From NCBI GenBank assembly GCA_025454875.1, contig JALONP010000007.1, forward strand, positions 1-64,000: a stretch of 64,000 nt of DNA, in the 5' to 3' direction. The notes under the pieces are model-generated. The model was not told the origin of the DNA. It saw only the letters and a list, made by a program, of their open reading frames with translations, and searched no databases. Each line of letters starts with the position of its first letter. Position 1 is the first letter of the stretch. The position numbers and the translations under genes were made by a program. This DNA is from Bacteroidia bacterium. GTDB taxonomy: Bacteria > Bacteroidota > Bacteroidia > UKL13-3. This document shows positions 3,401-22,473 of this stretch, piece after piece.

Positions 3401-3520
3401 GCGATCAATTGATCCCGGCTGAGCTATAGCACTTTTTGAAAAAAGAAGGTTAATAAATATCATTAGGAATTTAATTCCTAGTAATAATTTGGACTTTCCA
3501 GACGTGTAAAAAACTTTCAT
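437..3520 (-). CDS. Delta-60 repeat secreted protein with T9SS type A sorting domain
   Basis: Predicted cell-surface or secreted protein of 1027 residues. An N-terminal signal peptide ends near SKSAIAQP. About 14 copies of a roughly 50-60-residue unit follow, each with a LQPDGKIIVGG-like strand and an N-x-DGTxDxxF turn; this is the delta-60 repeat pattern, thought to form a beta-propeller-like fold. Two tandem CD(A/Q)xxWIDGxxYxxSNNxA modules ending in GCDSxVxLNLTI come next, as is common in Bacteroidota surface proteins. The last 75 or so residues (VYPNPF ... LPSGVYILRIEENG) are a type A T9SS sorting domain, which is cleaved during export. The ATG at 3520 is preferred to an upstream in-frame TTG at 3550 because it directly precedes a normal signal peptide. 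Ligand or function is unknown. It follows the paa genes on the same strand but is probably a separate unit. Confidence 0.85.
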   Translation of the reverse strand: MKVFYTSGKSKLLLGIKFLMIFINLLFSKSAIAQPGSIDRSFNPIDKGLGNGFGADMSVTKLITLPNGKTLIAGGFSAYNRIETLSLARVNGDGSFDTTFITEDQGADIRINDLIVLPNQKILMAGRFTTFGNSTINYLVRLNANGVVDNSFKLDTAIKNPISRMALLPNGKLIVCEVRAAPTIFNRNLIRQLNPNGTIDTTFKLVVETNGFVSNIALLPDSKILVSGSFTFIGNVSQNRIARLNSNGSLDTTFNIGEGADNSIFDFHLQPDGKIIIGGDFTSYNRVPRNRLTRLNSDGTLDISFNIGSGLNSSVNDIISQPDGKVLIAGDFNSYNGVPSNCVARLNNDGSIDETFNAGRGNYIPYNKGGAVFTIALQTDGKMMIGGSVANFNRTGRDFFLRLNQNGEVDLFFNKGTGANGAVDAIRIKPDGKIMIAGRFSSYNGIGRNYIARLNEDGTLDSSFNPQTWPNNFLREIELLPDGKMYIVGNFTSIGNRNIRSIARLHEDGTLDTTFDLGLTNFQGINNIELQPDGKIIVNGQFTTLNGVSRINVARINSDASVDLTFNSILPTSNDWFIPYCIQPDGKIVGSANLLFNGIRRFGMVRLNPNGTFDTSFASNNEDVSIQAAVLQPDGKVVVGGQFRFYQGIRNYGIIRLNSNGTIDTSFILFSNTRPFFVQALALQPDGKIIVQRNIISMIEENSIGIERLNSDGSLDSTFNAPASGGIASVVIQRDGKIVIGGSFMSYRNNGRNNITRILTCFPSMGIDTRIACDALQWIDGNIYSTSNNTATYRMEGAAVSGCDSIVTLNLTINKSAVGLHNVVACKQFKWIDGKVYQSSNNQASYNIVGGAANGCDSLVKLNLTIKNVNTTVTIDMSKITANATNGTYQWLNCSQNFEPITGATNQSFEPVVSGNYAVEIRQNDCVDTSICFNFIMTGLTENVHSKNGIMVYPNPFSKEAVVILPIRLNEATLIIENFMGKALTTITNINAQDIPIQRNNLPSGVYILRIEENGKTILLEKVIITD

Positions 3521-3587
3521 ATTTTTGATGATTATGAATTCTGTTATCAAAAAACGTACCCATGGTAATCCCTCTTTCTAAATTAAT

Positions 3588-4073
3588 TCACACCACAGGT
3601 TTAAACCCTTCAAAGGCTTGTAAGCAATTATTGCAGTAGTGCATGCTGCGACAAAGCGTTGGCCCAAAAGGCGATTTCATTTCCGTGTTCTTACTTCCGC
3701 AAAAAGGGCATTCAGTGTGTTGTAATAATTCTTGAGTTACTTCACCTTCGTGTTTAATGGGTGGGGCAAGTCCATGCTTTTTTAAACACATTAAACCTCG
3801 CGCTGTAAGTTTATTGCTATCCCAGGGTTTATCAAAAGTGGTAACTACTTCAATTTGGTTAATTCCAATTTCTTTAAGTCGTTCGGCCACCATTCCTTCC
3901 ATCATTTTAATAGCAGGGCATCCTGTAAACGTAGGTGTCATTTCCACAAAAACGCTGCTCTCACCACGCACCTCCACTTTAGTTATTATCCCCATATCCA
4001 CCATGCTCAATGTTGGAATTTCAGGATCCTTTACCACTTCGAGGGCTTGCCAAATTGATTGTTCTGTAATCAT
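3588..4073 (-). CDS. paaD: 1,2-phenylacetyl-CoA epoxidase subunit PaaD
   Basis: PaaD, needed for maturation of the phenylacetyl-CoA epoxidase, which turns phenylacetyl-CoA into its 1,2-epoxide in aerobic phenylacetate breakdown. The N-terminal two thirds is a MIP18/DUF59 Fe-S assembly domain (VKDPEIPTLSMVDMGII, then TPTFTGCPA with its conserved Cys). The C-terminus holds a four-Cys zinc-ribbon-like element (CPFCGS ... C ... CNNC), as in the family. Length 161 residues is normal. The ATG at 4073 shares its first base with the paaC stop (TAATG), so translation is coupled; a GTG two codons upstream is less likely. Last gene of the paaABCD run. Confidence 0.93.
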   Translation of the reverse strand: MITEQSIWQALEVVKDPEIPTLSMVDMGIITKVEVRGESSVFVEMTPTFTGCPAIKMMEGMVAERLKEIGINQIEVVTTFDKPWDSNKLTARGLMCLKKHGLAPPIKHEGEVTQELLQHTECPFCGSKNTEMKSPFGPTLCRSMHYCNNCLQAFEGFKPVV

Positions 4074-4828
4074 TACCACTCAGCCGAAGGGTCAATCGTA
4101 AAAACTTCACTCATCTCGTCTAACAAAGGTTGCAAGTGTTCTGTGTGATACCCTTTGCGCCCACCTAGTTTAGGTTCCCAAGTTTTTACATCAGGAATGG
4201 TAAGCGTTGCTTTTGCAAATATTGGGGTTATGGTTTCGAGCCAGCGATTTTTTAGTGCAGATTCTCCCTCAAATATGTTTTCCGTCTTTAATTGTACTTC
4301 GAAGGATCCTTCTTCAAACATGCCCAAAGCGTAATTCCACGATGCGCTTAATGCTGCTTGCATACGGGCATGACTTTCGTCTGTTGCTGTTCCAAGTTTT
4401 GTAATCCAAGTATTAGCGTGAAACACATGGTACTTTAATTCACCTTTTACCTTACGAGCAACTTTTGCCAATGGTTCGTAGCTGGAGGTAGCCAACATTT
4501 CGAAACGCAGTTGATCTGCTATGTCGTATAAAAAATGTCGCATCAAGCTAAAGTCATAATCACCATTTGGTAATTCTAAAAACTGCGCATTGTGAAACTG
4601 ATTAGCATTACGGGTAAAGGCAACCGTATCCGGAGCTTGTTCACCTAGTTCATGGAGCAACTGAAACAATGCTTGAGATTGCCCAATTTTATCTTGAGCC
4701 ATAGAGGAGAAAGCTATGTCTTCTTCCAATATGGGTCCCAGACCTGTCCATTCGCTATTTCTGTGTCCGATGATTAATAAATCATCAGCCATTTTGTACA
4801 ACAATTCTTTTATTGCTTCAGTATTCAT
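4073..4828 (-). CDS. paaC: 1,2-phenylacetyl-CoA epoxidase subunit PaaC
   Basis: PaaC, the structural ferritin-like partner of the catalytic PaaA subunit in the PaaABCE epoxidase complex in the cytoplasm. The 251-residue all-helical protein has the family patterns LLIIGHRNSEWTG near residue 18, EEDIAFSSMAQDKIGQ near 35 and the late helix DESHARMQAALSASWNYALGMFEE. Length matches the family (about 250). It is separated from paaB by one base (TGATATG) and overlaps paaD by one base, so it sits in the middle of a tightly coupled operon. Confidence 0.95.
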   Translation of the reverse strand: MNTEAIKELLYKMADDLLIIGHRNSEWTGLGPILEEDIAFSSMAQDKIGQSQALFQLLHELGEQAPDTVAFTRNANQFHNAQFLELPNGDYDFSLMRHFLYDIADQLRFEMLATSSYEPLAKVARKVKGELKYHVFHANTWITKLGTATDESHARMQAALSASWNYALGMFEEGSFEVQLKTENIFEGESALKNRWLETITPIFAKATLTIPDVKTWEPKLGGRKGYHTEHLQPLLDEMSEVFTIDPSAEW

Positions 4829-4829
4829 A

Positions 4830-5225
4830 TCATGCCTTTTCTTTTCTTGGAATCATTGTTCCTGTTTCTTTTTTGTACTTGTTTATTTTATCCATCACTT
4901 TGTAACCGCTCGCCTCTTTGTAAATTTTTTCAGGCGTGGTTTCAAACATGTCTTGATCTTCGTATTCTGTGCAAAAAACATTACTGGTTTTTACTACCCA
5001 AATATTGGCCGTAATCCCTCTCCTTCCGTATTGGTCTTTACCAAAAATTAAAGCCATTTCTGGATTAGGCGCATGAACAATGCCAACATGCATGTGTTGG
5101 TCGCCACGCTTTTTTTGGTGAAACACCTCATAGGTTTCCCAATTGTCCATTGGTGTTAATGGGTCAATCGTATTGTTTTCTGATATTTGTTCGCGTGTAA
5201 TACGCGGGTCAAGTGATTTGATCAT
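4830..5225 (-). CDS. paaB: 1,2-phenylacetyl-CoA epoxidase subunit PaaB
   Basis: PaaB, the small subunit thought to bridge PaaAC dimers in the epoxidase complex. Family hallmarks are WETYEVFHQKKRGDQHMHVGIVHAPNPEMAL and the downstream R(R)GITANIWVV. At 131 residues it is longer than the enterobacterial protein (about 95). The extra length is an N-terminal stretch (about residues 1-27) and a basic C-terminal tail. The gene lies 69 bp downstream of paaA and one base before paaC, consistent with cotranscription. Confidence 0.93.
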   Translation of the reverse strand: MIKSLDPRITREQISENNTIDPLTPMDNWETYEVFHQKKRGDQHMHVGIVHAPNPEMALIFGKDQYGRRGITANIWVVKTSNVFCTEYEDQDMFETTPEKIYKEASGYKVMDKINKYKKETGTMIPRKEKA

Positions 5226-5294
5226 AAAGAAATTTTTAACCGTTAATGCCGCTAAGATTACCCTTGCATTCGCAACGTTTGTGTAGGTAATTAA

Positions 5295-6284
5295 TTACGC
5301 CAAGGGAGTAACATATTTTTCAGCCTTATTCAACAAAGCGTTTCGCACCCAGCGTCCTCTTTCTTCCGCCATTCTACGAACAGCTAAACGCTCAGCATTG
5401 CACGGTCCACCGCCATTAATTACACGTTTGAATTCCTCCCAATCTGGTTCTGTGTAGTCCCATTTACCCGTAGCTTCATTCTTTTTCAAATTGGCATCAG
5501 GAACTGTTAAACCCAGATCCCAGATTTTTGGAACGTACATATTTAAAAACTGCTGACGCATATCATCATTGGTTGCCATTTTCACTTTCCAACGCATCAA
5601 TATTTCGGTGTGATTTGAAATTTTATCACTTGGTCCAAAAAAATGCATGATTGGAGGCCACCAGCGATTTAGAGCTTCCTGTACCATTTTTCGTTGAACA
5701 GGAGTCCCTGTGGCTAATGTCACTACATTATCATGACCATATTTTAAGTGGAAACTTTCCTCGGTACAAATACGATCCAATGCACGGCAGTATGGTCCGT
5801 AACTTCCTTTTGCATTAGCGACCTGATTGATAATTGCTCCTGCATCAATTAACCATGCAATAATACAGGCATCTGCCCAGGTAAATGCTGGATAATTAAA
5901 CACATTTGAATACTTAGATTTCCCAGTTATCAAATCGTTGGTCATTTCTTCTCGGCTTTTGCCCAAGGTTTCAGCAGCACTGTATAATAGCTGTGCGTGT
6001 CCTACTTCATCTTGCACCTTAGCCATCAAAGCAAGCTTGCGCTTAAAGCCTGGGGCTCGCGTAATCCACGTTCCTTCTGGCAATGCTCCAATAATTTCGG
6101 AGTGTGCATGTTGTTCAATCATTCGGATGAGCTGCTTGCGGTACTCGCGCGGCATCCAATCTTTTGGTTCAATTTTTTCGCCACGTGCAATACGTGCTTC
6201 AAATTCAGCTAATTTAATTGGATCCTCGCCATCAATGATTGATTTAGGCTTTTCATTTGGATCGATGTAAGCATTTCCGTACAT
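5295..6284 (-). CDS. paaA: 1,2-phenylacetyl-CoA epoxidase catalytic subunit PaaA
   Basis: PaaA is the di-iron monooxygenase subunit that epoxidises the ring of phenylacetyl-CoA. Visible di-iron ligand motifs are [10 protein letters not shown], the helix [11 protein letters not shown] (ExxH) and [10 protein letters not shown] (ExxxH). At 329 residues it is slightly longer than the E. coli protein (309). It is the first structural gene after the TetR regulator (46 bp gap, same strand), followed by paaB, paaC and paaD. No paaE-type ferredoxin reductase is present in this cluster, so the electron donor must be encoded elsewhere. Confidence 0.95.
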
Positions 6285-6330
6285 ATCTTTCTGTTTATAT
6301 TAATATTGTTGGTTATTTATTGATAGCCAT

Positions 6331-6942
6331 TTATGGCTTGTAATCAATATCTGTTACAAGCTTTTTTCGAAGGCCACCCAAAATAAAATCGCTGAGCTCA
6401 TTCGCAATTTCGGTTGGACTCATCTTTCCTTTAGGGTTGTACCACTCATTTACCCAATTTAATGTAGATAATATCGTGAGTGCAGCAAATTTTTGATCTA
6501 CTGCTTCAAACAAATCTTCGTTTTCGCCATCATTTAAAATAACTTTTAACTCATTTTCATAGGCATCTCTCAGCCCTTTAAACTCACTCAATTTTGGCTC
6601 GCTTAAACTTCTCCATTCATGCAAAAAAACAGCACTGTAATCCACGTGTTGAGTCAATAGCGTTATATGATTTTTTATAGCCATTCGAAGCTTTTCTTCT
6701 GCGTTAAAATAAATATCGTTCACTTCTGCAATAGCCACAATCATTCGATCTGCTAACGAAAAACAAATCAACTCCAAAATTTCTTCTTTGGATTTTATAT
6801 GATGGTATAAACTTGCTGCTTCCATGCCAAGTTCTGAAGCAATATCACGCATGCTTGTGCTTGCAAAGCCTCGTTGTTTGAACATCTTGGCGGCAGTTGA
6901 CAATATTTGTTCTTTACGGCTGATATTGAGGGCTTCTGACAT
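6331..6942 (-). CDS. TetR/AcrR family transcriptional regulator, probable paa regulator
   Basis: Cytoplasmic one-component regulator of 203 residues. The N-terminal helix-turn-helix covers about residues 10-55 (ILSTAAKMFKQRGF, then TSMRDIASELGMEAASLYHHIKSKEEIL), typical of TetR. The rest is a variable helical ligand-binding domain. It is first in the leftward paa operon and divergent from phaB. By analogy with PaaR-type regulators it may repress these genes until an acyl-CoA such as phenylacetyl-CoA binds; that ligand is inferred from context only. The 118-bp divergent region contains an inverted repeat that could be its operator. Confidence 0.88.
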   Translation of the reverse strand: MSEALNISRKEQILSTAAKMFKQRGFASTSMRDIASELGMEAASLYHHIKSKEEILELICFSLADRMIVAIAEVNDIYFNAEEKLRMAIKNHITLLTQHVDYSAVFLHEWRSLSEPKLSEFKGLRDAYENELKVILNDGENEDLFEAVDQKFAALTILSTLNWVNEWYNPKGKMSPTEIANELSDFILGGLRKKLVTDIDYKP

Positions 6943-6997
6943 AAACCTAATGATTGTTAGACAAAGTTAGTGGGTCTGTTGCAATTTCCAAACATTT

Positions 6998-7037
6998 AAT
7001 TTAACAGCCTTGCAATCAATTAATAAAATGTTAAATT
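6998..7037. promoter_or_regulatory. Inverted repeat in tetR-phaB divergent promoter region
   Basis: The sequence AATTTAACA at 6998-7006 is perfectly inverted as TGTTAAATT at 7029-7037, with 22 bp between. It lies between the divergent TetR gene and phaB, where an operator is expected. The spacing is long for one TetR dimer, so the arms may instead be halves of two sites or chance in AT-rich DNA. Confidence 0.3.
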
Positions 7038-7060
7038 GAACCATTCAAATAAAACAGCTT

Positions 7061-7807
7061 ATGGATCAGCAAAACAAAAGAGTGGTTTTGGTAACTGGCG
7101 CAACAGGTGGCCTAGGAACTGCAATGTGTGAAGATTTACATAAAAACGGTTACCGTGTTGTTGCCAATTATCGCAACAAAGAAAAGGCAGACAAATGGAA
7201 AGCAGAAATGGATGCTAAAGGAATCAGTGTTAGTTTGTTCGCAGGAGATGTATCCAATTATGAAAGTGTTGGTAAAATGGTTACAGCGATTGAAGCGGAA
7301 ATTGGCCCTATAGATGTTTTGGTAAATAATGCAGGCATTACCCGAGATACTGCTTTTCGCAAAATGACTTACGATCAGTGGCGAGATGTGCTCTCTTCCA
7401 ATTTAGACTCGGTTTTTAATTGTACACGACATGTAATTAACGGAATGATTGATCGAAACTGGGGACGTATAATTAATATTTCGTCCGTTAATGGTCAACG
7501 CGGACAATTTGGTCAAGCAAACTACAGCGCAGCCAAAGCTGGAATGCATGGATTTACCAAAACACTAGCCATGGAGGTTGCGCGCAAAGGAGTAACAGTG
7601 AATACCATCTCGCCTGGATATATTGGAACAGACATGGTGATGGCTGTGAAAGAAGAAATCAGAAATCAAATTGTTGAGCAAATTCCTTTAGGTCGCTTGG
7701 GTGGAACAGAAGAAGTAGCACATTTAGTTTGTTTTTTAGCTAGCGATAAAGCAAGTTTCATTACAGGAGCTAATTATTCAATCAACGGTGGTCAGCATGT
7801 GTATTAA
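7061..7807 (+). CDS. phaB: Acetoacetyl-CoA reductase (SDR family)
   Basis: Short-chain dehydrogenase of 248 residues, most like NADPH-dependent acetoacetyl-CoA reductase PhaB, which makes (R)-3-hydroxybutyryl-CoA for polyhydroxyalkanoate or related acyl-CoA metabolism. The cofactor loop TGATGGLG is at residues 12-19, NNAG at 89-92, and the catalytic set is N114, S142 (NISSVNG), Y155 and K159 (YSAAK). The ISSVNGQRGQFGQANYSAAKAG stretch is typical of PhaB rather than FabG, although FabG-like activity cannot be excluded. It is divergent from the TetR/paa operon, suggesting shared control. No phaC or phaA is in the window. Confidence 0.85.
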   Translation: MDQQNKRVVLVTGATGGLGTAMCEDLHKNGYRVVANYRNKEKADKWKAEMDAKGISVSLFAGDVSNYESVGKMVTAIEAEIGPIDVLVNNAGITRDTAFRKMTYDQWRDVLSSNLDSVFNCTRHVINGMIDRNWGRIINISSVNGQRGQFGQANYSAAKAGMHGFTKTLAMEVARKGVTVNTISPGYIGTDMVMAVKEEIRNQIVEQIPLGRLGGTEEVAHLVCFLASDKASFITGANYSINGGQHVY

Positions 7808-10539: not shown

Positions 10540-10547
10540 TAATTTTG
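10540..10547 (+). promoter_or_regulatory. Candidate promoter -7 box (TAATTTTG)
   Basis: TAATTTTG matches the Bacteroidota -7 consensus TAnnTTTG, with a TTG at 10515-10517 about 22 bp upstream as a possible -33 element. It lies 18 bp before the preferred ATG at 10566. An upstream TTG start at 10545 would fall inside this box, which supports the ATG. Confidence 0.45.
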
Positions 10548-10565
10548 TTGTCTAAATCTTTTGCC

Positions 10566-13500
10566 ATGAGCCAACTCGTCAGAATTCGTTTACAACTACT
10601 TTCATTGCTCACGCTTAGTATTGGGTTTGCACACGGACAACTTCCGGTAAGTGGTACTAAAACAATTTGCCCAACAGGATGTGATTTTCCAACTCTCACT
10701 CGCGCATTTGATACCATAAGTACCAACGGATTGGGTGGTGCCGTTATTCTTGAGTTGCAGCCTAGTTATGTTTCTACGAGTGAGGTGTTTCCAATTTCAC
10801 CGTCTACGAATGCTACAGTAACAAATACGATAACAATTAGACCTTCGGCTTCAGTAGCTTCTGCGCTTACCATCACATCTACGAACAATATCGCCACGAT
10901 TCGACTTAATGGCGCTCAGTATGTAGCGTTTGATGGTAGGAATGGTGGAGTTGGAACGAACCGATTTTTAAACATTGTAAATGCAAATACTGGAGACTCT
11001 GCATCTACTATCCTTTTTATCAATGGTGCTCAGAATAATACTATTCGAAACTGTGCTTTATCAGCAAGGGCTGCGGCAGATTCAATATCGGCAATCATCT
11101 TATTTGGGGCAGGAACAGGAAACAATAGCAATAACACAATTCACAACAATACCATTTCAAACGGAGCTGTTCAAGTTTCAAATGGCATTGCCTCGATTGG
11201 TCTTGCAGGAAATCCTAACATTAATAATACGATATCGAATAACCTTATTTCCAATTTTAGAGATGCGAATAGTATTCGTGTAAGTGCCATTTTTACAAGC
11301 ACGGGCACAAGTGATTGGACAATTACTAATAACACTATTTTTACACCGTCTGCTATTGCTGCTAACACGGGCTCGCGCTATTACTTCATAAATCTTACGG
11401 CAGGCTCAGGGTACACAGTTTCTGGAAACACCATTGGTTATGCCACAGCAACATTAACAGGAACAATGACTTTTACTGGCGCTGGTCGCTTTCGCTTAAT
11501 TGCATTAACAGGTGGTGCTGGCACAACATCCTCAATACAAGGCAATACCTTTCGCAACATCAATATTGCTTCAAGTGTACTAGAAACAGTTGATACATTA
11601 TCTGCATTCATCGGTATTCATGTTGGAGCAAATGCCACCGCCAATATTGGAACAGTGACTCCAAATGTTTTTGGTAACCAAACCTCTACAGGAAATATTA
11701 TACTGAATTTGTCTGGTAATAATGCATCACAACAAGCTTCGTCTATGATTCTAATAGGAGGGCCCAATTGCTCGGTATCAAACAACACTTTTGGTAGCAT
11801 AAGCTCCATTAGTACTTCTCGCCAAGCTCGTTTAATTGCCATTAGGAACATTGCAAGCACGGGAACAACAACAATAAACAACAATACCATTGGTGGGCTT
11901 ATTGCAGGAAGTTTAAGAATTGCTTCAACCACCGCTCAAATTATTGGCGTTTGGAGTACTGCTGGTTCTGCAACAATTGAAAACAACACTATCCAAAATC
12001 TAATGCACACTGGTGCAAATGCCGGAGCAACCAATGCCACCTCTGCTATTGGCATTCACATCGAAAATACCACAACTGGAGGGCAAACAATTCGTGGAAA
12101 CTTAATTGAAAAACTGAGCAACACAAATATTGGCAATGGGGCTTACGGTGTAATAGGCGTTCGGTATAACGGCCCTACAACAGGAACAAATACCATTGAA
12201 AAAAATACCATCAGACGCTTAAGCGTAGACGCTGCTGGAACCACTGGGGTTATTCAGGGTTTGACGATAGTTGCTGGAAACACAACAATAGCCAGCAATG
12301 CCATAGCTGTAGGAGCAAACACAAGTGGCAATTCGATTACCAAGCCTGTAAATATTCGTGGAATCAATGACCTAGGAGGTAACAATAATTATTATTTCAA
12401 CTCAGTTTATGTTCATGGCAATAACGCGCTAAATAATGTGGCAACATTTGCCTTTATTACAAGTAATACTGTAGGAACCCTTGATATCCGCAACAACAGT
12501 TTTTCTAATAATCGAAACTTTACTGTAACCAATGATATTGCAGGAATTAAGAACTATTGCTTCTCTTCAAACGAAGCCCTTTCAGCTGGCGTTATACCTG
12601 GGGTTACGCTGAACTTCAACCATTACCATTCATCAAACGACTCTGCATTGTTCCGCTTAGTTTCAACTGATTATGGTTCTCTAACTTCATGGAGGGCTGC
12701 AGCAACAGGCCACGATGCAAATAGCCAATCCGGATATCCCTTGTATAATTCACGTGATATTCTTAAGCCTCTTGCTACAAGTCCTCTTGGACCAGGAACT
12801 GCCATTGCTGGAATAACAACAGATATTGAGAATGCTACACGCACAACCAATAAGATGGGCGCTTTTGAAGGGGTTGGTGATTTTGCTCCACCTGATATTG
12901 GACACAATGGAGCGCTCAAAACGAATGTAATAACGGATCGAACACTTACTGCTCGAATTAGGGATACAACTGGAACAAACACAACTGGACCTCTAGTGCC
13001 CAAATTATATTACCGCAAAAACAGCAACAGCTTTAATTCAGCAACTGGGTCCTTGTCTTCAGGAAACGGAAAAGACGGCGTTTGGAGTTTTGTTTTATCA
13101 ACTACAACCATGGGTGGACTTACTGTTGGTGATACTGTTTTGTATTATATAGTTGCTCAGGATACAAGTATTAACAACAATATTGCATCAAATCAAGAAG
13201 GAGTTAATGCAACGGATGTGAATACGATTATCAGTGCCCCAACATCCTTGTATAGCTACCGCATTGTAGACGCTGCAAATAACGCTTATACCGTTTGTGA
13301 TACTTGCGATTTTACTTCTTTAACTGAAAGTGGAGCAACTGGCGCTTTTGATGTGTTAAACAATACGATATTCACCTCTAATGTAGAATTGCTCATATAC
13401 GACTCACTAGACGAGAATGGTGTAGTTGCCTTTAATGGCGAGGCCTTAGGTGGCTTTAGACTAACGATTAAACCTGGTTACGACACTGTTTTTACAATCA

Positions 13501-16500
13501 CCAATAGTGCGAACTTGTCGCAAACAATGATCAGAATTAACAAGGCTAGTAATGTTACAATTAACGGTTCATATGATGGAAGCAAAAGGAACCTGCGGTT
13601 TATAAACACAAACACAACGGCAGGTAATTGCCAAGCTGTTCTAGCTTTTGATGATGGCTGCTCAATTGATACACTGAAAAACTGTATCATAGAAAGCAAT
13701 GCTACAAACGGGGCTAGATACCCTATAATTATTGGGCAAACTGGCAGCAATACACGAATCGTTATTTCAGGAAATTTAATTCGGGGATCTGTTGGAAGCC
13801 CCGGAACGATAAGCACTGCGGGTGTTGTTGGAGGAATTCTTTCAAACTCAGTTTCAAACTCAAAATTAGTTATTGGCGGGCCTAACAGTACAGATGGTAA
13901 TGAAATCACGAACTTCTCTACCAACGGTGTTTTTTTACAGTCTTCTGGCGATAGCTGCACAATTAGAAACAACTTCATTTATCGGAACCTTGACCGAAAT
14001 GGTGCTTCCACCTGCATAAGCGTTACGAATGGCAATGGCCATGTTATTTCAAATAATAATATTGGTGGCAATGCTACAAACAGAAGTGGTGTAGCATTCA
14101 CAATTAGAGGAGCAAATACACTAACAGCCGTCTCGGTTAACTTAGGTATTGTTGGCCAAACCACTATCCAGAACAACACGATTTCAAACTTTGGTGCAGC
14201 CAATCAAACGGATGCTACGCTAGTAAATGGCATTCTAGTTAACGGTGGAAATGTGCTTGTTTCCAATAATACAATTGGCGGTGGAACAAACCCATATGAC
14301 ACTATTGTTACGAGTGCTACTTTCACTGGGATAAGCTTAGCTGGAACTGCACAAATTATTGGTATTGTAGAAAACAATACAATTTCCAATATAAGCCATT
14401 ACCGTTCAGCTTCTGTAGCAGTGTATGGTATTAACTTCTCTAACTCCAATGTTTCCTCAACATTTACAATCAGGAGAAATATTATTCAAAACATAAGAGG
14501 AAATTCTTCTAGCATATCCGATGCAGCACACCCAATCGGAATATACCTAGCCGCTACCAATACAACAGGAAACACTGTTGATAGTAATATTATTTCAAAT
14601 ATTCAAAATGCTCAAACACTAGCCTCAACCCGTGTTGCCGGTATCAGGTCTGTGGCTACTGCAGGAGGTGCCACAATTTCACGAAACAGAATCTTTAATC
14701 TCTCCCAACCCAATCAAATAGGCAACTATGATATTTGGGGGATTTTGGCTTCAGGTTCTAATAACCTAGTATTCGCAAATAATTACGTGTCTCTCTCTGC
14801 AACAGCAGGAACACCTTTTTTATACGGGCTATCTGCAGTTGCCACAGGCGGAACAACCAACATGTTTTATAATAATTTATATGTTGGCGGGTCTGCGGCT
14901 TCAGGTAGCAGTAAATCATATGCCCTTTTTAAAAATTCTTCATCAACGATTGTGGCTCGCAACAATATATGTTACAATGAGAGAAGCGGTGGAACTGGTG
15001 GACATTTTTCAATTGGAATCAACTCAACTACCGGCTTCGCGTCTTCGAACAATGTAATGATTTCGGCTTCCGCATCAGCAGTTGGTGAGGTCGCAACCAC
15101 AGCATATAACTTTACCGATTATAACACCAACTCTGGACAAACAAACAGCAAAAATGGCTTGAGTGCGAATTATCCTGCCGCTTCCTTTTTTGCTTCTACT
15201 TCAACTGGAAATCTTGCTTCGTCTAGTTGTATTTCAAGTAACTCAGGGGTTGTTGTATCTGTAACAACTGATTATGCTGGAGCCACACGCTCCTCGTCTA
15301 CTCCAGATATTGGCGCCAATGAGTTTGCTACAGTTCAAAACACTTGGACAGGCGCTATCTCCACAAATTTTAGCGTTTCGAGTAATTGGTGCGCTGCATC
15401 GGTGCCTACTTCCACCGACACATTCACTATTGCCACTGCTTCAAATCAACCTGCATTATCTACAAACACAACCATACATACAGTTACTTTAAACACTGGA
15501 GCGAGGCTCGACTTAAATGGTTTTACCCTCACTTTAAATGGCGCCCTTTCTGGCCTAGGTACAATTAGAAGCAATGCCGCCTCTTCAATGATTATTAATG
15601 GAACTGGGTCAGCAGGAATAATTCGAATTGACCAAAGCAATCCTGGAACCACAAACACAATTGGTGCATTTACATTAAACCGTGGTACAACACCAGCTTC
15701 AGGATCAGCAACACTTTCGGGTACGCTAAGGATAGAAGACTCTTTGGTTGTAACAAATGGCACTTTGAATACGGGAGATAGCGTAGTTCTGCTTTCTTCT
15801 GTAAGTAAAACTGCACGAATAGGGCGAATAAATACTTCTAACGCTGCAATTGCAGGGCAAGTAGTTGCACAACGTTTTATAAGCAGCCAAGGCAGGCGTT
15901 GGCGCTTTTTTGCTTCTCCAGTCCAAGGAGCCACTGTAGCCGATTTAAAGAATGAGATTCATATTACAGGACCAGGAACTGGCACTACAATAGGCACCGA
16001 AAATTCAAACGGCTTTGACGCTACGCCAGGGAACGTATCTTCAATATTTTCATATAATGAGCCTGCAACTGGCGGGGTAAACAATGGCTGGGTTGCCCCT
16101 GCTGGCAAAACAGACTCATTGCGTGTTGGACGAGGATATCGCGTTTTTGTTCGCGGGCCAAGAACTGAAGGAAATGGATTATTGGATGGCAGTATACTAA
16201 CCCAAAATGCCGTAACTGTTGACTTGCGAGGAACACCAAACGTTGGCGATTACAGCCCCGTTGTAACATTTACCAACACGGGAACACCCGCTGCTGATGG
16301 TTGGAACTTACTTGGAAACCCTTACGTATCACCAATCAGCTGGAACGCTATACACGATGCAGGAAGAACCGGATCTTTTCCAAATTACAGTGGAACGGAT
16401 TATTTAAATCTAAGTCCTGTTGTATTCGTCTTAAATACTGTGGCAAACAAATATGATAGCTATAACGCAAACAGCGATACTGGCACCTTAACAGGAGGCC

Positions 16501-17312
16501 TCATTCCATCTATGTCTTCTTTTTTTGTGATTGCACAAGCAGGAACAGCAGCACTCAACCTAAGAGAAACGCATAAATCAGATGGAACACCGGTAAATAT
16601 ATTTAAGTCAAGCAGTGGCAAAGGTATAGGTATAAAGCTATACGAAAATGGCTCAGAGTTCGACCAATTTATTTTTAAACCCTTAACCGATGCTACTCCT
16701 ATTCTAGATGGTTACGATATCCCTAAACTAAACAACCCCAATTTAAACATTAGCAGTTGGGGTGTTGATGGTCGTTACTTATCATTAGATTGCAGGCCGC
16801 TAGAAAATGACACTGTGCGGATTCCGCTTTCCATAAGGTTATCGAAAACAGGGTTGTTTAATTTTGAGATGAATAGTGATGAACTTTCTGCATATGATGC
16901 TCGCTTAGAAGACCGTTTTACCAAGACAACAACACTAATTGGCGCCAATACTCCGTATACATTTACAGTTTCTTCAGACACAAACTCTACGGGAGATTCT
17001 CGATTTGTTCTTGTTTTTACAAAGTCTGCCACAAATGTAAAACCATCCATTTCCTCACCGCCATTTAAAATGGTTATGTTTCCCAACCCAATTAGTGACA
17101 AACTTAACCTTGCTTATTACAATAATACCGCTGCACAATTAAAGGTTGAGCTGTTTGATATGGCTGGTAAATGTTTTGAGAGCAAAACACATGAAACCCA
17201 AGCAGAAGGGCTTTTAAAATTAGACGTGCAAACGCTTGCCTCTGGAGTATACTTAGTTAGAATCACAAACCTTGATGGGCTTGTTTTGGCAACAGAAAAA
17301 ATAGTAAAGTAA
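10566..17312 (+). CDS. Giant duplicated beta-helix surface protein with T9SS sorting domain
   Basis: Predicted secreted or surface-anchored protein of 2248 residues. The signal peptide ends near IGFAHGQ. The mature part opens with CPTGCDFPTLTRAFDTI, then several hundred residues rich in NNTIxN/GNTI turns, as in right-handed parallel beta-helices. A second module starts around residue 915 with a recognisably similar opening (YTVCDTCDFTSLTE) and a second beta-helix array, so the protein looks internally duplicated. A more ordinary beta domain (NTWTGAISTNFSVSSNWC, about residue 1595) and the WNLLGNPYVSPISW region follow. The C-terminus (MVMFPNPISDKLNL ... LASGVYLVRI) is a type A T9SS sorting domain. 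Composition is Thr/Asn/Ser rich. Adhesin or polysaccharide-binding roles are possible but not shown. It stands alone between radC and a GtrA-like gene. Confidence 0.87.
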   Translation: MSQLVRIRLQLLSLLTLSIGFAHGQLPVSGTKTICPTGCDFPTLTRAFDTISTNGLGGAVILELQPSYVSTSEVFPISPSTNATVTNTITIRPSASVASALTITSTNNIATIRLNGAQYVAFDGRNGGVGTNRFLNIVNANTGDSASTILFINGAQNNTIRNCALSARAAADSISAIILFGAGTGNNSNNTIHNNTISNGAVQVSNGIASIGLAGNPNINNTISNNLISNFRDANSIRVSAIFTSTGTSDWTITNNTIFTPSAIAANTGSRYYFINLTAGSGYTVSGNTIGYATATLTGTMTFTGAGRFRLIALTGGAGTTSSIQGNTFRNINIASSVLETVDTLSAFIGIHVGANATANIGTVTPNVFGNQTSTGNIILNLSGNNASQQASSMILIGGPNCSVSNNTFGSISSISTSRQARLIAIRNIASTGTTTINNNTIGGLIAGSLRIASTTAQIIGVWSTAGSATIENNTIQNLMHTGANAGATNATSAIGIHIENTTTGGQTIRGNLIEKLSNTNIGNGAYGVIGVRYNGPTTGTNTIEKNTIRRLSVDAAGTTGVIQGLTIVAGNTTIASNAIAVGANTSGNSITKPVNIRGINDLGGNNNYYFNSVYVHGNNALNNVATFAFITSNTVGTLDIRNNSFSNNRNFTVTNDIAGIKNYCFSSNEALSAGVIPGVTLNFNHYHSSNDSALFRLVSTDYGSLTSWRAAATGHDANSQSGYPLYNSRDILKPLATSPLGPGTAIAGITTDIENATRTTNKMGAFEGVGDFAPPDIGHNGALKTNVITDRTLTARIRDTTGTNTTGPLVPKLYYRKNSNSFNSATGSLSSGNGKDGVWSFVLSTTTMGGLTVGDTVLYYIVAQDTSINNNIASNQEGVNATDVNTIISAPTSLYSYRIVDAANNAYTVCDTCDFTSLTESGATGAFDVLNNTIFTSNVELLIYDSLDENGVVAFNGEALGGFRLTIKPGYDTVFTITNSANLSQTMIRINKASNVTINGSYDGSKRNLRFINTNTTAGNCQAVLAFDDGCSIDTLKNCIIESNATNGARYPIIIGQTGSNTRIVISGNLIRGSVGSPGTISTAGVVGGILSNSVSNSKLVIGGPNSTDGNEITNFSTNGVFLQSSGDSCTIRNNFIYRNLDRNGASTCISVTNGNGHVISNNNIGGNATNRSGVAFTIRGANTLTAVSVNLGIVGQTTIQNNTISNFGAANQTDATLVNGILVNGGNVLVSNNTIGGGTNPYDTIVTSATFTGISLAGTAQIIGIVENNTISNISHYRSASVAVYGINFSNSNVSSTFTIRRNIIQNIRGNSSSISDAAHPIGIYLAATNTTGNTVDSNIISNIQNAQTLASTRVAGIRSVATAGGATISRNRIFNLSQPNQIGNYDIWGILASGSNNLVFANNYVSLSATAGTPFLYGLSAVATGGTTNMFYNNLYVGGSAASGSSKSYALFKNSSSTIVARNNICYNERSGGTGGHFSIGINSTTGFASSNNVMISASASAVGEVATTAYNFTDYNTNSGQTNSKNGLSANYPAASFFASTSTGNLASSSCISSNSGVVVSVTTDYAGATRSSSTPDIGANEFATVQNTWTGAISTNFSVSSNWCAASVPTSTDTFTIATASNQPALSTNTTIHTVTLNTGARLDLNGFTLTLNGALSGLGTIRSNAASSMIINGTGSAGIIRIDQSNPGTTNTIGAFTLNRGTTPASGSATLSGTLRIEDSLVVTNGTLNTGDSVVLLSSVSKTARIGRINTSNAAIAGQVVAQRFISSQGRRWRFFASPVQGATVADLKNEIHITGPGTGTTIGTENSNGFDATPGNVSSIFSYNEPATGGVNNGWVAPAGKTDSLRVGRGYRVFVRGPRTEGNGLLDGSILTQNAVTVDLRGTPNVGDYSPVVTFTNTGTPAADGWNLLGNPYVSPISWNAIHDAGRTGSFPNYSGTDYLNLSPVVFVLNTVANKYDSYNANSDTGTLTGGLIPSMSSFFVIAQAGTAALNLRETHKSDGTPVNIFKSSSGKGIGIKLYENGSEFDQFIFKPLTDATPILDGYDIPKLNNPNLNISSWGVDGRYLSLDCRPLENDTVRIPLSIRLSKTGLFNFEMNSDELSAYDARLEDRFTKTTTLIGANTPYTFTVSSDTNSTGDSRFVLVFTKSATNVKPSISSPPFKMVMFPNPISDKLNLAYYNNTAAQLKVELFDMAGKCFESKTHETQAEGLLKLDVQTLASGVYLVRITNLDGLVLATEKIVK

Positions 17313-17355: not shown

Positions 17356-17871
17356 ATGATAAAAATAATACATGCACTTCGTGTATGGATTCGGAACTAT
17401 CCTTTTTTGCACCGATTTACTAAATTTGGCATTGTAGGGGTAATTAGCACCCTTGCAAGCCTATTTGTGTTTTGGTTAATAACACTACAATATCCCCAAT
17501 ACAACTTGCCAGCAAAAGCTATTGGCTATATCATGGGGTTTTTTGTGGGCTTTTCACTTAACAAGTTATGGACTTATGTAGATCAAACAGAAGATGGTGA
17601 AAGGTACTTACTAAAGTACATTATAGTTTATGGAATTACCTTTTTTGTGTTTTTAGGATTCAATTTTGTTTGTGATCACTATGTCCATCCAGAAGTTTTT
17701 GTTGCGCAATTACTATCTCCTTTTTTATCAGATTATTGGACTACTTTTTTAATATCGAACGGCCCCCTGGTTTCAAATGTATTGGCCATTGGAGTGAATG
17801 TAGGAATGAATTTCTTGGGAACCAATTTTCTTGTTTTTAGGGTTCCGGATCCGAAAGATTTATTTGACTAG
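17356..17871 (+). CDS. GtrA-like small multi-pass membrane protein
   Basis: Inner-membrane protein of 171 residues with about four hydrophobic segments. The start of the domain (FTKFGIVGVISTLASLFVFWLI, about residues 24-45) and GFFVGFSLNKLWTYVDQ near 65 match the GtrA family, linked to moving undecaprenyl-phosphate-bound sugars or cell-surface polysaccharide synthesis. No glycosyltransferase gene is adjacent, so the substrate is unknown. It ends tail to tail with the next gene, sharing the palindromic CTAG as both stop regions. Confidence 0.75.
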   Translation: MIKIIHALRVWIRNYPFLHRFTKFGIVGVISTLASLFVFWLITLQYPQYNLPAKAIGYIMGFFVGFSLNKLWTYVDQTEDGERYLLKYIIVYGITFFVFLGFNFVCDHYVHPEVFVAQLLSPFLSDYWTTFLISNGPLVSNVLAIGVNVGMNFLGTNFLVFRVPDPKDLFD

Positions 17872-19109
17872 TCCTTTTGCCGTAGTTTTTTCTTTTGCGC
17901 TGGGCTCATGGTATTAATTCGTTTGTAATAACCAGTTTTGGTTTTGTCTACAAACAATTGCAACTTCTTCCCTTTAGGAAGTTTATTTCCATTTAATTTG
18001 TTCCACTTTTTAATATCAGCCTCCGTTACATCAAACCAATCAGCTATAGCGGTAAGGTTATCGCCTTTTTTAACCACATAATACACTTTTGCTTTTTTTA
18101 CTGTTGGTTTAGACGGTGTTTTTGCTGATTTAACCGTGGGGATGGAGTCTGTTTGAGGTAACGTATCATTGCCTGGCTTTTGAATTGCCACAGGCACAAA
18201 TTCAGTCGTTTTTGGTAATGGGCTGTATAGCGAATCTCTGAGCAAATCAAATTCAGCCCCCTTCGATTTAGGTAAATAAATCCAATATCCTTCGGGAGTG
18301 TAGGGTATAATGTCTTTCTTGAACGTTGGATTCAACTTTCGCAGTTGTTCAAGAGGAATATGTATGGTGGCAGATATCTGTTGAAATGAAAGCCATTTAT
18401 TTACGAGCGCACTATCAAGTTCTGGCGTAAAGGGGGCGTCCTGATTATTCGGCTTAATATTGTGTTCCTTATAATAGTTCAAGATGTATGCTGTTGCAAT
18501 CACTTTTGGAAAAAGCCCTCTAGAGTTCTCAGGGATGTAAGGATACACATCCCAAAAGTACAAACTATTGTTGGCCATTCGAATGCATTTATTCAACATT
18601 ACTGGAGAGCATCCGTAGGACGCGATTGCAAGTGGCCACTGCTTATAAATGCTATATAAGTCTTTGAAGTGCGATGCAGCAGCGATAGCAGATTTGTTGG
18701 GATCTTTACGTTCGTCTACGAATGAATTAACTTTTAGTTTGTACATTTTTGAAACCGTGTACATCATCATCCACTGACCAGAAGCACCGTACGAATTTTC
18801 TGCCAGAGGGTTGAGTTCTGAAACAGCCATTGCAATATACTTTAAATCCGTTGGAAGGTTTTTTGCCCTTAATGCGCGCTCAATTGTTGGAAAATAGACC
18901 TTGCTTAATGTGATTAGCTCTTTTGTTTTTTCTGGATTATCAAGGTATTGATCAATATAACGCTTCACTTCTGCATTATAAGTTAAGTCAAGAGGAGATC
19001 TAAGTGTAGCCAATCTTTGTGCATACACATCCTCCTGTTTAACCGTTTGAGAGAGAATGTTAAAACTTGTAAATACGCTTAATACTATCGCTACTATACT
19101 TTTTAGCAT
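17868..19109 (-). CDS. LysM-containing lytic transglycosylase-like protein, active site doubtful
   Basis: Exported 413-residue protein: signal peptide (residues 1-20), a Slt/MltD-like transglycosylase domain (about 65-215), a Pro/Lys-rich linker and a C-terminal LysM repeat (YYVVKKGDNLTAIADWFDV, about 345-390) that binds peptidoglycan. The fold is recognisable from PTDLKYIAMAVSELNPLAEN, GASGQWMM and FWDVYPYIPENSRGLFPKVIAT. In MltD-type enzymes the catalytic Glu sits in a (V)ES(A/G)(F/L)(D/N)P motif; here the aligned residue is Val96 (AVSELNP), with a Glu two residues later, and the usual AYNxGP is SYGCSP. It may be a non-catalytic peptidoglycan-binding paralogue. It lies just downstream of gatA and converges with the GtrA-like gene. 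Confidence 0.8.
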   Translation of the reverse strand: MLKSIVAIVLSVFTSFNILSQTVKQEDVYAQRLATLRSPLDLTYNAEVKRYIDQYLDNPEKTKELITLSKVYFPTIERALRAKNLPTDLKYIAMAVSELNPLAENSYGASGQWMMMYTVSKMYKLKVNSFVDERKDPNKSAIAAASHFKDLYSIYKQWPLAIASYGCSPVMLNKCIRMANNSLYFWDVYPYIPENSRGLFPKVIATAYILNYYKEHNIKPNNQDAPFTPELDSALVNKWLSFQQISATIHIPLEQLRKLNPTFKKDIIPYTPEGYWIYLPKSKGAEFDLLRDSLYSPLPKTTEFVPVAIQKPGNDTLPQTDSIPTVKSAKTPSKPTVKKAKVYYVVKKGDNLTAIADWFDVTEADIKKWNKLNGNKLPKGKKLQLFVDKTKTGYYKRINTMSPAQKKKLRQKD

Positions 19110-19120
19110 GTTTCGTATGA

Positions 19121-20530
19121 TTAAGCCATTATATGTGCAGCCATATTCAACAAGTCGTTCTCTGCAAAGTTTTTACCGAGCAATTGTAACCCGATTGGCA
19201 TTCCATTGTTATGGTGCCCGATTGGAAATGAGATTGCAGGGTGCCCAGAAATATTTGCGTGTACCGTGAACATGTCTGCTAAATACATTTCAATTGGGTT
19301 GTTGGACTTTTCGCCAAATTTAAATGCTGTAGAAGGAGTTACTGGCGACAGAATAAAATCATACTCGCTTAGTATTCGCTCGGTTTCTTCTTTTACTTTT
19401 CTTCTAACCTTTTGCGCTTTGCTGTAATATGCATCGTAAAAGCCAGATGACAAAACAAATGTTCCAAGCATGATTCTGCGTTTCACCTCTTTCCCAAAAC
19501 CCTCACTTCTTGATTTCTTAAATGTTCCATCAATACCATTAGACAAGTTACTTCGATGACCAAAAAGCAATCCAGAAAAACGGGAAAGATTTGAGGATGC
19601 TTCAGCTGTAGTCATTACATAGTAAGCAGGTACAAGCGCATCTAACATTTCAAACCCTACTTCTTCAACCATATGACCGTCTCGCTTTAATTTATCGATG
19701 ACTTCTTCTGTCTGCCTCTTTACTTCAACATCCAACGCTGGATGGTTAAGTGCTTCTTTGATATAAGCAACCCTTGATTTGCGAAAAGAATGGGTATAAG
19801 GAGTAATCGGTTCGCTTGACGTGGTTGCATCGTTATTATCTTTCCCACCAATTACCTCCAATATAACCGCAGCATCTTCTACACTTTGTGTAATGGGTCC
19901 TATTTGGTCAAAAGATGATGCATAAGCAATAAGCCCATAACGAGAAACCCTTCCATAGGTTGGCTTCAAACCAATAGCTCCACAAAAAGCGGCCGGCTGC
20001 CTAATGCTCCCTCCTGTGTCTGAGCCAATACTTGCCAAGCACATATTGGCTTGCACGGCAACGGCTGCCCCTCCCGAAGATCCACCAGAAACACGGGTGT
20101 TATCAGCATAATTGAGAACTGGCCCAAACGCAGAGTTTTCATTCGAAGCGCCCATTGCAAACTCATCACAATTGGTTCTGCCAATAATAATTGCGTCTTC
20201 TGAAATGAGCCTCTGAACTGCTGTAGAAGTATAAACAGCTCTGTAATTTTGCAAAATTTTTGATGCTGCAGACACAACATGTCCCTTGTAACAAAGATTA
20301 TCTTTAATAGCCAAAACCATCCCCGCCAAACGCCCTGCTTTGTTGTTATCGATCTTCTCCTGTATTTCTTTGGCTCTTTGTAAAGCTTCTTCTTCAAAAA
20401 CCTCCAAAAACACGTTCAGGTTTTTGTTGTCGTTTATGGTCTGAAGATAATTGGAAACAATAGCAACAACGGTGTTTTTTTTGCTTCGAATATCAGCCTG
20501 AATGCTGCTGAGTTTTGTATACCGTTCCAC
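19121..20530 (-). CDS. gatA: Asp-tRNA(Asn)/Glu-tRNA(Gln) amidotransferase subunit A
   Basis: Catalytic amidase subunit of the GatCAB complex, which converts Glu-tRNA(Gln) (and often Asp-tRNA(Asn)) to the correct amidated form. At 469 residues it has the amidase signature Ser-cisSer-Lys triad: Lys76 (LAIKDN), GGSSGG at 149-154 and the nucleophile Ser175 (SDTGGSIRQPA). The start is a GTG at 20530 that overlaps the tatA stop (TAGTG), implying translational coupling. gatB and gatC are not in the window, so the complex is encoded at several loci. Confidence 0.93.
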   Translation of the reverse strand: MERYTKLSSIQADIRSKKNTVVAIVSNYLQTINDNKNLNVFLEVFEEEALQRAKEIQEKIDNNKAGRLAGMVLAIKDNLCYKGHVVSAASKILQNYRAVYTSTAVQRLISEDAIIIGRTNCDEFAMGASNENSAFGPVLNYADNTRVSGGSSGGAAVAVQANMCLASIGSDTGGSIRQPAAFCGAIGLKPTYGRVSRYGLIAYASSFDQIGPITQSVEDAAVILEVIGGKDNNDATTSSEPITPYTHSFRKSRVAYIKEALNHPALDVEVKRQTEEVIDKLKRDGHMVEEVGFEMLDALVPAYYVMTTAEASSNLSRFSGLLFGHRSNLSNGIDGTFKKSRSEGFGKEVKRRIMLGTFVLSSGFYDAYYSKAQKVRRKVKEETERILSEYDFILSPVTPSTAFKFGEKSNNPIEMYLADMFTVHANISGHPAISFPIGHHNNGMPIGLQLLGKNFAENDLLNMAAHIMA

Positions 20531-21036: not shown

Positions 21037-22473
21037 TTAGCCCAATCTCACCAATCTTTTTAATGCGTTAACTTCTTTTTCGGTTAATTCTCTCCACTCC
21101 CCACGCTTCAACTTACCCTTAGTTAACCCTGCATATAAAGCCCTATCCAATTTGTCCACTTTGTAACCAAGGTGTTCAAACATGCGGTGAATTATTCGGT
21201 TTTTTCCGCTGTGTATTTCTATTCCTACTTCATTTTTGTTTTTAGGATCGGGTATTGCTACCGCATCTGGTTTAATAAACCCGTCTTCCAATTCTACACC
21301 ATTGGTTAACTGCCAAATATCCTCTCCTTTAAAATTTTTATTAAGGGTTGCCTTGTACACCTTCTTCATTTCATATTTGGGATGCATTAACCGTTGCGCC
21401 AAATCACCATCATTGGTGAAGATAAGTACCCCCGTTGTGTTTCGGTCGAGTCTTCCAACTGGATACACGCGCTCTCCCAACTCTTTTCCGAACAATTCCA
21501 TCACTGTTCTGCGGCCTTCTGGGTCATCAAACGTAGTAATTGCATCTTTGGGTTTGTTTAACAATAGATATACCTTCTTTTCTCTACTTAGCCGTTCCCC
21601 ATTGTACCGAACATCGTCTGCCGATTTTACTTGATAACCCATTTCGGTAATCACTTTGCCGTTAACCGTTACTAAGCCCGCACCAATAAGTTCGTCAGCC
21701 TCTCTCCTAGAGCAAACTCCTGCATTTGCTATGTACCTGTTTAATCGAATATTTCCCTCTTGGACTGATTCTTCTTTTCTTGCCTTTTTTCGATCAAAAA
21801 TCAAATCCGTTTTTGATGGTCCTCTCCCACTCCTCGACTTTACCTTAGGTTCATGATCTATGCGAGATGCGTTAGTAGTTGAAAGCGCTCTACCAGAACC
21901 ACTTGTTCGTTTTCTATCTATTAAACGCGAACTCTTTTCTGGTGAAGCTTTTCGTGCAAAAGGTTTGTCTAAATTGTTTGTGCGTTTTCTATCTGATGAA
22001 CGCGACTCTCTGTCGGATGAGGTTTTCCGCGTAAAGGGTTTGTCTAAATTGTTTGTGCGTTTTCTATCTGATGAACGCGACTCTCTGTCGGATGAGGTTT
22101 TCCGCGTAAAGGGCTTGTCTAAATTGTTTGTGCGTCTTCTATCTGATGAACGCGACTCTCTGTCGGATGAGGTTTTCCGAGCAAAGGGTTTATCTAAATT
22201 GATTGTGTGTCTTTTATCTGATGAGCGCGATTCTCTATTGGATGATGCTTCGCGCTTAAAGGGTTTGTCAGAGTAACTGTTTTGTTTTCTATTTGAACTC
22301 GTGCCTTCTCCGTTGCTTACACGAGAAGACAAACGCTGATTTCCTGAGTTTGATTTTGACCCCGTTCTTGTCGATTTGCCTCTATCGGCAGCTGACGATT
22401 TCCGTGCCGCTGTTGTTTTTACAAAAGTCCTCTTACCATCTTTGTCGTTGCGCTTGTTTCCTTTATTATACAT
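21037..22473 (-). CDS. RluB/RsuA-family rRNA pseudouridine synthase with repetitive basic N-terminus
   Basis: Cytoplasmic rRNA-modifying enzyme of 478 residues. Residues from about 240 carry an S4 RNA-binding domain (IRLNRYIANAGVCSRREADELI) and then the RsuA/RluB catalytic domain with its GRLDRNTTGVLIFTNDGDL motif (catalytic Asp in GRLD). The E. coli RluB type modifies 23S rRNA; the exact site here is not known. The first 230 or so residues are low-complexity and strongly basic, rich in Arg, Lys and Ser. They include five tandem 25-residue units (DKPFxRKxSSDRESRSSDR type). Basic extensions on this enzyme are common in Bacteroidota, but nearly identical tandem copies are unusual. Confidence 0.9.
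   Translation of the reverse strand: MYNKGNKRNDKDGKRTFVKTTAARKSSAADRGKSTRTGSKSNSGNQRLSSRVSNGEGTSSNRKQNSYSDKPFKREASSNRESRSSDKRHTINLDKPFARKTSSDRESRSSDRRRTNNLDKPFTRKTSSDRESRSSDRKRTNNLDKPFTRKTSSDRESRSSDRKRTNNLDKPFARKASPEKSSRLIDRKRTSGSGRALSTTNASRIDHEPKVKSRSGRGPSKTDLIFDRKKARKEESVQEGNIRLNRYIANAGVCSRREADELIGAGLVTVNGKVITEMGYQVKSADDVRYNGERLSREKKVYLLLNKPKDAITTFDDPEGRRTVMELFGKELGERVYPVGRLDRNTTGVLIFTNDGDLAQRLMHPKYEMKKVYKATLNKNFKGEDIWQLTNGVELEDGFIKPDAVAIPDPKNKNEVGIEIHSGKNRIIHRMFEHLGYKVDKLDRALYAGLTKGKLKRGEWRELTEKEVNALKRLVRLG
21892..22270 (-). repeat. 75-bp in-frame tandem repeat (five units)
   Basis: The motif GTCTAAATT and its surroundings recur at 21967, 22042, 22117 and 22192 (slightly diverged), and a degenerate copy begins near 22267, giving a fixed 75-bp period. 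The three central units are almost identical at DNA level; the outer ones are diverged. Each encodes 25 residues of the pseudouridine synthase N-terminal extension, so unit number can change without a frameshift. Confidence 0.9.

Follow-up and report, generated by a model that had tools for sequence, protein, structure and literature searches.

A gene at positions 17868-19109 of the window, by which we mean the whole 64,000-nt stretch of Bacteroidia DNA analysed here, encodes a relative of the lytic transglycosylase MltD in which the catalytic Glu is replaced by Val, and this Glu-less state is fixed in the family of bacteria to which the window genome belongs. In our reading, to which we assign a probability of roughly 0.7, the product is a conserved pseudo-lytic transglycosylase that binds peptidoglycan and acts as an adaptor or regulator. 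The relevant features are as follows.

17868..19109, minus strand: Glu-less MltD paralogue (putative pseudo-lytic transglycosylase), 413 aa, from the ORF, Pfam SLT and LysM matches and relatives.
19050..19109, minus strand: signal-like N-terminus, about residues 1-20, without a lipobox Cys, from the sequence by eye.
18570..18884, minus strand: SLT domain, residues 76-180, from Pfam, an AlphaFold block of pLDDT 96-98 and a PDB match to MltD (Z 23.6) over residues 36-295.
18822..18824, minus strand: codon of Val96, at the catalytic Glu position (E. coli MltD E125), from alignments.
18816..18818, minus strand: codon of Glu98, put forward as a shifted Glu but variable, with an acidic residue in 27 of 56 Glu-less relatives.
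18603..18620, minus strand: SYGCSP (164-169), altered motif III, AYNxGP in ordinary MltD, from alignments.
18513..18515, minus strand: Leu199, which stands where TRGYVP has its conserved Tyr (E. coli Y230), from alignments.
18270..18419, minus strand: what may be a first, degenerate beta-alpha-alpha-beta unit of LysM type, residues 231-280, suggested by the element order of the model.
17955..18080, minus strand: LysM domain, residues 344-385, from Pfam.
17871..17954, minus strand: post-LysM segment ending YYKRINTMSPAQKKKLRQKD, from comparison with Bacteroidota MltDs.
19121..20530, minus strand: gatA-like gene, directly upstream of the window gene on the same strand, with an 11-bp gap.

The preliminary description of this gene had stated that the transglycosylase fold and the LysM domain were kept, and the domain searches and structure model bear this out. 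Pfam matched SLT to residues 76-180 at 52.3 bits (cut-off 21.3) and LysM to residues 344-385 at 45.1 bits (cut-off 20.9). An AlphaFold2 prediction made from 46 aligned rows had a mean pLDDT of 90.3, falling below 50 solely at residues 314-333. The top PDB match by Foldseek was P. aeruginosa MltD (8rhf_B, E 1.1e-15), and VIA-align placed 252 residues on 8rhe_B with a Z of 23.6 and an rmsd of 3.4, MltF being next at 17.4. Pfam had no match at residues 231-280, and at E values up to 1 the protein matched only SLT and two LysM models, a LytM (M23) domain being absent. Against the NCBIfam MltD equivalog NF008050 it scored 93.9 bits, below the cut-off of 508. Read by eye, the N-terminal region has no Cys for lipoprotein status as in E. 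coli MltD, an outer-membrane lipoprotein according to PMC10931528. From this N-terminus, the window protein is probably periplasmic and soluble.

The catalytic Glu was said to be replaced by Val96 within AVSELNP (95-101), and the alignments agreed: Val96 falls on Glu125 of E. coli MltD (MG1655 sequence, b0211) and on the Glu of IESAYNP in 8rhe, the MltD of P. aeruginosa. In the AlphaFold2 model it lies at the C-terminal end of helix 87-97. Since the E125A and E125K mutants of E. coli MltD are reported as catalytically inactive (PMC10931528) and lytic transglycosylases are proposed to rely on a single catalytic acid/base residue (PMC5372988), the loss falls on the very residue that counts. PDB titles call MltE E64Q and Slt E503Q an 'inactive mutant'. 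The reading of AYNxGP as SYGCSP (164-169) was recovered letter for letter; at the AYNxGxG of motif III the protein has SYGCSPV and at the TxxYVP motif SRGLFP, so that it carries neither motif. Among 56 non-identical Glu-less relatives, which were chosen for a residue other than E at position 96, that position is A (19), L (15), S (11), V (9) or I (2) and never Asp; L070, from another family, was removed from this set by hand, and the named relatives that added Glu-less rows were 80 loci out of 480. The catalytic column holds E in 56 Glu-bearing MltD rows and in 28 rows of a shorter SLT gene, but because the 56 Glu-bearing rows were sorted by having E, they show the contrast and do not test it.

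The comparison took in 40 genomes: the window's own, 1 other from its genus, 22 from its family and 16 from its class. Most of the matches were read. The window genome has three Pfam SLT matches: the window gene; L002, a Glu-bearing MltD with VIESALNP and AYNCGPGNV that is 35% identical to the window protein; and L003, a shorter SLT gene with AESGLQ. Read residue by residue, a Glu-less copy was found in all 24 genomes of the window's family (f1), and because of this the loss of Glu in the window gene is, on the sequences compared, beyond chance. A Glu-bearing MltD also occurs in 23 of the 24, the copy in G014 (L069) running off its contig; in the 24th genome, G020, MltD is split into pieces at the ends of two contigs, with the Glu position outside what was read. 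A profile built from the 24 Glu-less proteins was then run on 64 family genomes, 58 of which scored at least 449 bits, with the next score down at 364; beyond the 24 that were read, 34 of these 58 were judged mostly by score. The six genomes lacking a full match are all less than 90% complete, and one of them holds a tail fragment. At completeness of at least 90% and contamination of at most 5%, 45 of 45 family genomes carry the copy. NG86 estimates of dN/dS were 0.03-0.13 for Glu-less pairs (6 of 10 computable), 0.04-0.11 for Glu-bearing MltD pairs (8 of 8) and 0.03-0.17 for pairs of the third SLT gene (6 of 8). These values are rough, since dS was above 0.8 in all pairs and above 1 in all Glu-less pairs that could be computed, and since start-codon choice had shortened the frames of some pairs (to 312 and 339 codons). 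Judged from these codon comparisons, the Glu-less gene is under purifying selection.

We next compared positions conserved in at least 90% of the 56 Glu-bearing MltD rows with the 24 family rows. Kept by at most 20% of the family rows were positions 96, 98, 105 (S), 114 (Q), 115 (F) and 119 (T), as well as 166 (N), 168 (G) and 170 (G); around the TRGYVPA motif, positions 198-200 and 202 behave alike. In E. coli MltD numbering, the cleft loses the equivalents of Ser134, Gln143, Asn196, Gly198, Gly200 and Tyr230. At the other end, at least 80% of the family rows keep P86, K90, Y91, S97, G111, W113, L125, D132, R134, D136, W158, Y165, A205, Y208 and others. A relaxed cleft on a fixed core is, as a conservation pattern, the usual mark of a pseudoenzyme. 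The losses go less far in eight Glu-less rows from other families, of which 4 keep Q114, 3 keep S105 and 3 keep G168. Seven positions (I245, D357, F359, D360, N399, Q405 and D413) are at least 95% conserved in the family and below 30% in ordinary MltD, and six of the seven fall in the LysM domain and tail. Between the 24 family rows and the 56 ordinary MltD rows we found no new conserved SLT-domain surface that replaces the lost cleft residues, so a docking face on the SLT domain is conjecture. The C-terminal tail ends in Asp in 53 of 56 Glu-less rows. We considered the tail as a module special to the pseudoenzyme and dropped the idea, since a pattern scan found a like segment (YxxINxMSFxQK-like) after LysM in many Glu-bearing Bacteroidota MltDs.

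Outside the window's family, Glu-less copies are patchy and occur in four or more further families of the same class. A DNA pattern written for Glu-less motifs, which undercounts, was run on 395 class genomes and matched 26 of them, 11 of the 16 window-family genomes and 15 others. Seven of these 15 hold a protein relative (E 1e-3) and eight do not; the latter are taken as chance matches, and a reversed-pattern control gave 8 matches. Pattern and locus reading together gave Glu-less MltD-like genes in f28 (4 genomes), f9 (2) and, weakly, f51 (1), and f12 has one Glu-less copy (L070). When 20 profile matches from the class were read, 4 were Glu-less (2 genomes of f53 and 2 more of f9) and 16 had E. 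Profile score was rejected as a separator of Glu-less from ordinary copies, as the scores overlap across 295 class genomes. In trees made with the motif columns removed, and with L190 (f51, branch 4.9) and near-copies omitted from both, one tree put 25 Glu-less rows on a single branch beside Glu-bearing MltDs (support 99/93) and the other did so for 20 Glu-less rows (support 90/98). An earlier quick tree needed two changes for the Glu-less rows. Several Glu-less rows sit on long branches, the joining of L070 with L184 carries a warning that it may be false, and the tree draws L067, a row of the window's family, among other families. A single ancient origin of the Glu-less clade is likely, but the long branches and the unexpected position of L067 leave it unproven.

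The gene directly upstream (19121..20530), which we take to be gatA-like from its translation as read by eye, is perhaps co-transcribed with the window gene. A gatA relative holds the same place in 47 of 49 Glu-less loci of the window clade, the two without it being L118 and L130. In these two (3657-7251 and 3248-7140, respectively) no gatA match lies between an RluB-like gene and the Glu-less MltD gene, and a short TatA-like ORF, named by eye, is found there. Linkage to gatA was rejected as something special to the Glu-less gene, since in other families a Glu-bearing MltD adjoins gatA (L032, L033, L034, L035, L037, L039, L232, L234 and L238). In f53 the gatA-linked gene is the Glu-less one (L227, L229), and at L212 and L214 of that family the Glu-less MltD beside gatA has a Lys-rich tail at its end. 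No gatA match was found at 31 named Glu-bearing loci, some of which have short flanks, or at any of the 8 checked Glu-less loci of f28, f9, f12 and f51. The site next to gatA, then, can be occupied in other families by an active-looking MltD, whereas in the window's family the dead copy is found there and the Glu-bearing one adjoins tsaD (L246; tsaD named by eye). Since gatA is a housekeeping neighbour, the function of the window gene cannot be read from it. Elsewhere in this part of the window, a pseudouridine-synthase-like gene (RluB type, by eye) at 21037-22473 on the minus strand has a long basic N-terminal extension with near-identical repeats. At 17356-17871 on the plus strand, a small GtrA-like membrane protein (by eye) is encoded convergently with the pseudo-transglycosylase gene, the stops of the two ORFs overlapping by 4 bases; a GtrA-related ORF is present in 15 of 49 Glu-less loci, once (L142) about 2.3 kb away. 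A very long ORF of 2255 aa occupies 10545-17312 on the plus strand, and its C-terminus (PNPISDKLNLAYYN...GVYLVRI) resembles a sorting domain (type A) of the type IX secretion system.

A broken catalytic motif could also mark a decaying pseudogene, an assembly error or a mutation of a single strain. We regard the chance of this as negligible: the frame is free of stops in all 24 family genomes read, a full-scoring copy is present in every one of the 45 good genomes and dN/dS is low, so that conservation across the family refutes it. Retained transglycosylase activity, with Glu98 or another acid such as Glu133 of DER as the catalyst, is another alternative, and the preliminary description had itself raised the possibility of a shifted Glu. 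Residue 98 is indeed Glu in the window protein and in 25 of 56 Glu-less relatives, and D132, E133 and R134 are invariant across the 24 family rows. However, the remaining relatives have D (2), G (10), M (7), A (6), S (2), N (2), R (1) or L (1) at position 98; being non-acidic in 29 of 56, it offers no general replacement, and we rejected the shifted Glu98 on grounds of conservation. The DER residues are likely structural, since ordinary MltD rows also hold D132 and R134 (56 of 56) and E133 (47 of 56). The 56 Glu-less rows contain no conserved acidic residue that is absent from ordinary MltD, the nearest to a clade-specific acid being D150 (24 of 24 family rows, 24 of 56 ordinary MltD). As cleft residues 105, 114, 166, 168, 170 and 199 are lost as well, retained activity appears very improbable, and the window protein is, from its alignments, very probably without transglycosylase activity.

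Given that Glu is lost in the window protein and in its relatives across the family, the protein probably grips or steers the wall machinery and does not cut. The preliminary suggestion of a non-catalytic peptidoglycan-binding paralogue is well supported by the fixed Glu-less state, the lost cleft residues and the coexisting Glu-bearing MltD, and we hold a binding-type function to be highly probable. The protein would be exported to the periplasm, where LysM would dock it on peptidoglycan, and the dead SLT domain would offer a binding platform by which a genuine wall enzyme is recruited, positioned or held back; the likeliest candidates for that enzyme are the active MltD paralogue and an amidase. 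Whether it regulates another hydrolase or has a purely structural role we judge to be about evenly balanced. In its strict form, the structural alternative makes the protein a peptidoglycan binder with no regulatory partner, its SLT domain being an inert spacer or an extra wall-binding surface; the concentration of clade-specific, near-invariant residues in LysM and the post-LysM segment fits this, and no partner was found, but the SLT core residues are kept under purifying selection to a degree that a spacer does not seem to need, and we consider it unlikely. Less likely still is that the paralogue is dominant-negative or shields the substrate, keeping glycan strands out of reach of the active MltD. 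The Glu-less copy does coexist with a Glu-bearing MltD in 23 of the 24 family genomes that were read, and LysM is retained, yet residues of the glycan cleft are widely lost in the family, which makes shielding through the cleft doubtful, although LysM could still shield the strands. The adaptor or regulator is the reading we prefer.

By both sequence and fold, the best PDB match of the window protein is MltD (P. aeruginosa 8rhe/8rhf, E. coli b0211), with which it shares the SLT fold, N-terminal helices and a C-terminal LysM, and from which it differs in lacking the catalytic Glu, motif III, the cleft Tyr and, by eye, an N-terminal Cys. Glu-bearing Bacteroidota MltDs, unlike the window protein, have the catalytic Glu and an AYNCGPGNV-type motif III, and in many of them the shared post-LysM segment is followed by a second LysM. 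The window protein derives from MltD but lacks the catalytic features that define such enzymes, and so does not belong among the lytic transglycosylases; if the Glu-less family is regulatory, this is a warning that the annotation misnames a recognisable clade. Our search of the literature on inactive or pseudoenzyme lytic transglycosylases and on MltD in these bacteria found no conserved Glu-less SLT/MltD family, which does not by itself establish absence from print. Bacteria must hold their wall-cutting enzymes in check, and dead LytM peptidases are known regulators; if regulatory, the Glu-less family would be a Bacteroidota control element of a different fold. The degenerate LytM regulators EnvC, NlpD and DipM are alike in idea, each having a dead peptidoglycan-hydrolase domain with a binding role, and DipM, a catalytically inactive LytM protein, stimulates the transglycosylase SdpA and the amidase AmiC. 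PrgK of pCF10 is described as having degenerate hydrolase domains that modulate an SLT domain, although there, unlike in the window protein, the SLT domain is the active one. The fold of EnvC, NlpD and DipM is that of a LytM peptidase and not SLT, and enzyme activation is proposed for the window protein by analogy. We tentatively propose, as a possibility short of even odds, that an ancient Bacteroidota subfamily of pseudo-lytic transglycosylases arose from MltD when the catalytic Glu was lost, and now does with an SLT fold what the degenerate LytM factors do with theirs, its members being wall-bound regulators that switch active hydrolases or place them. By this analogy, the window protein may work like the degenerate LytM factors without being one.
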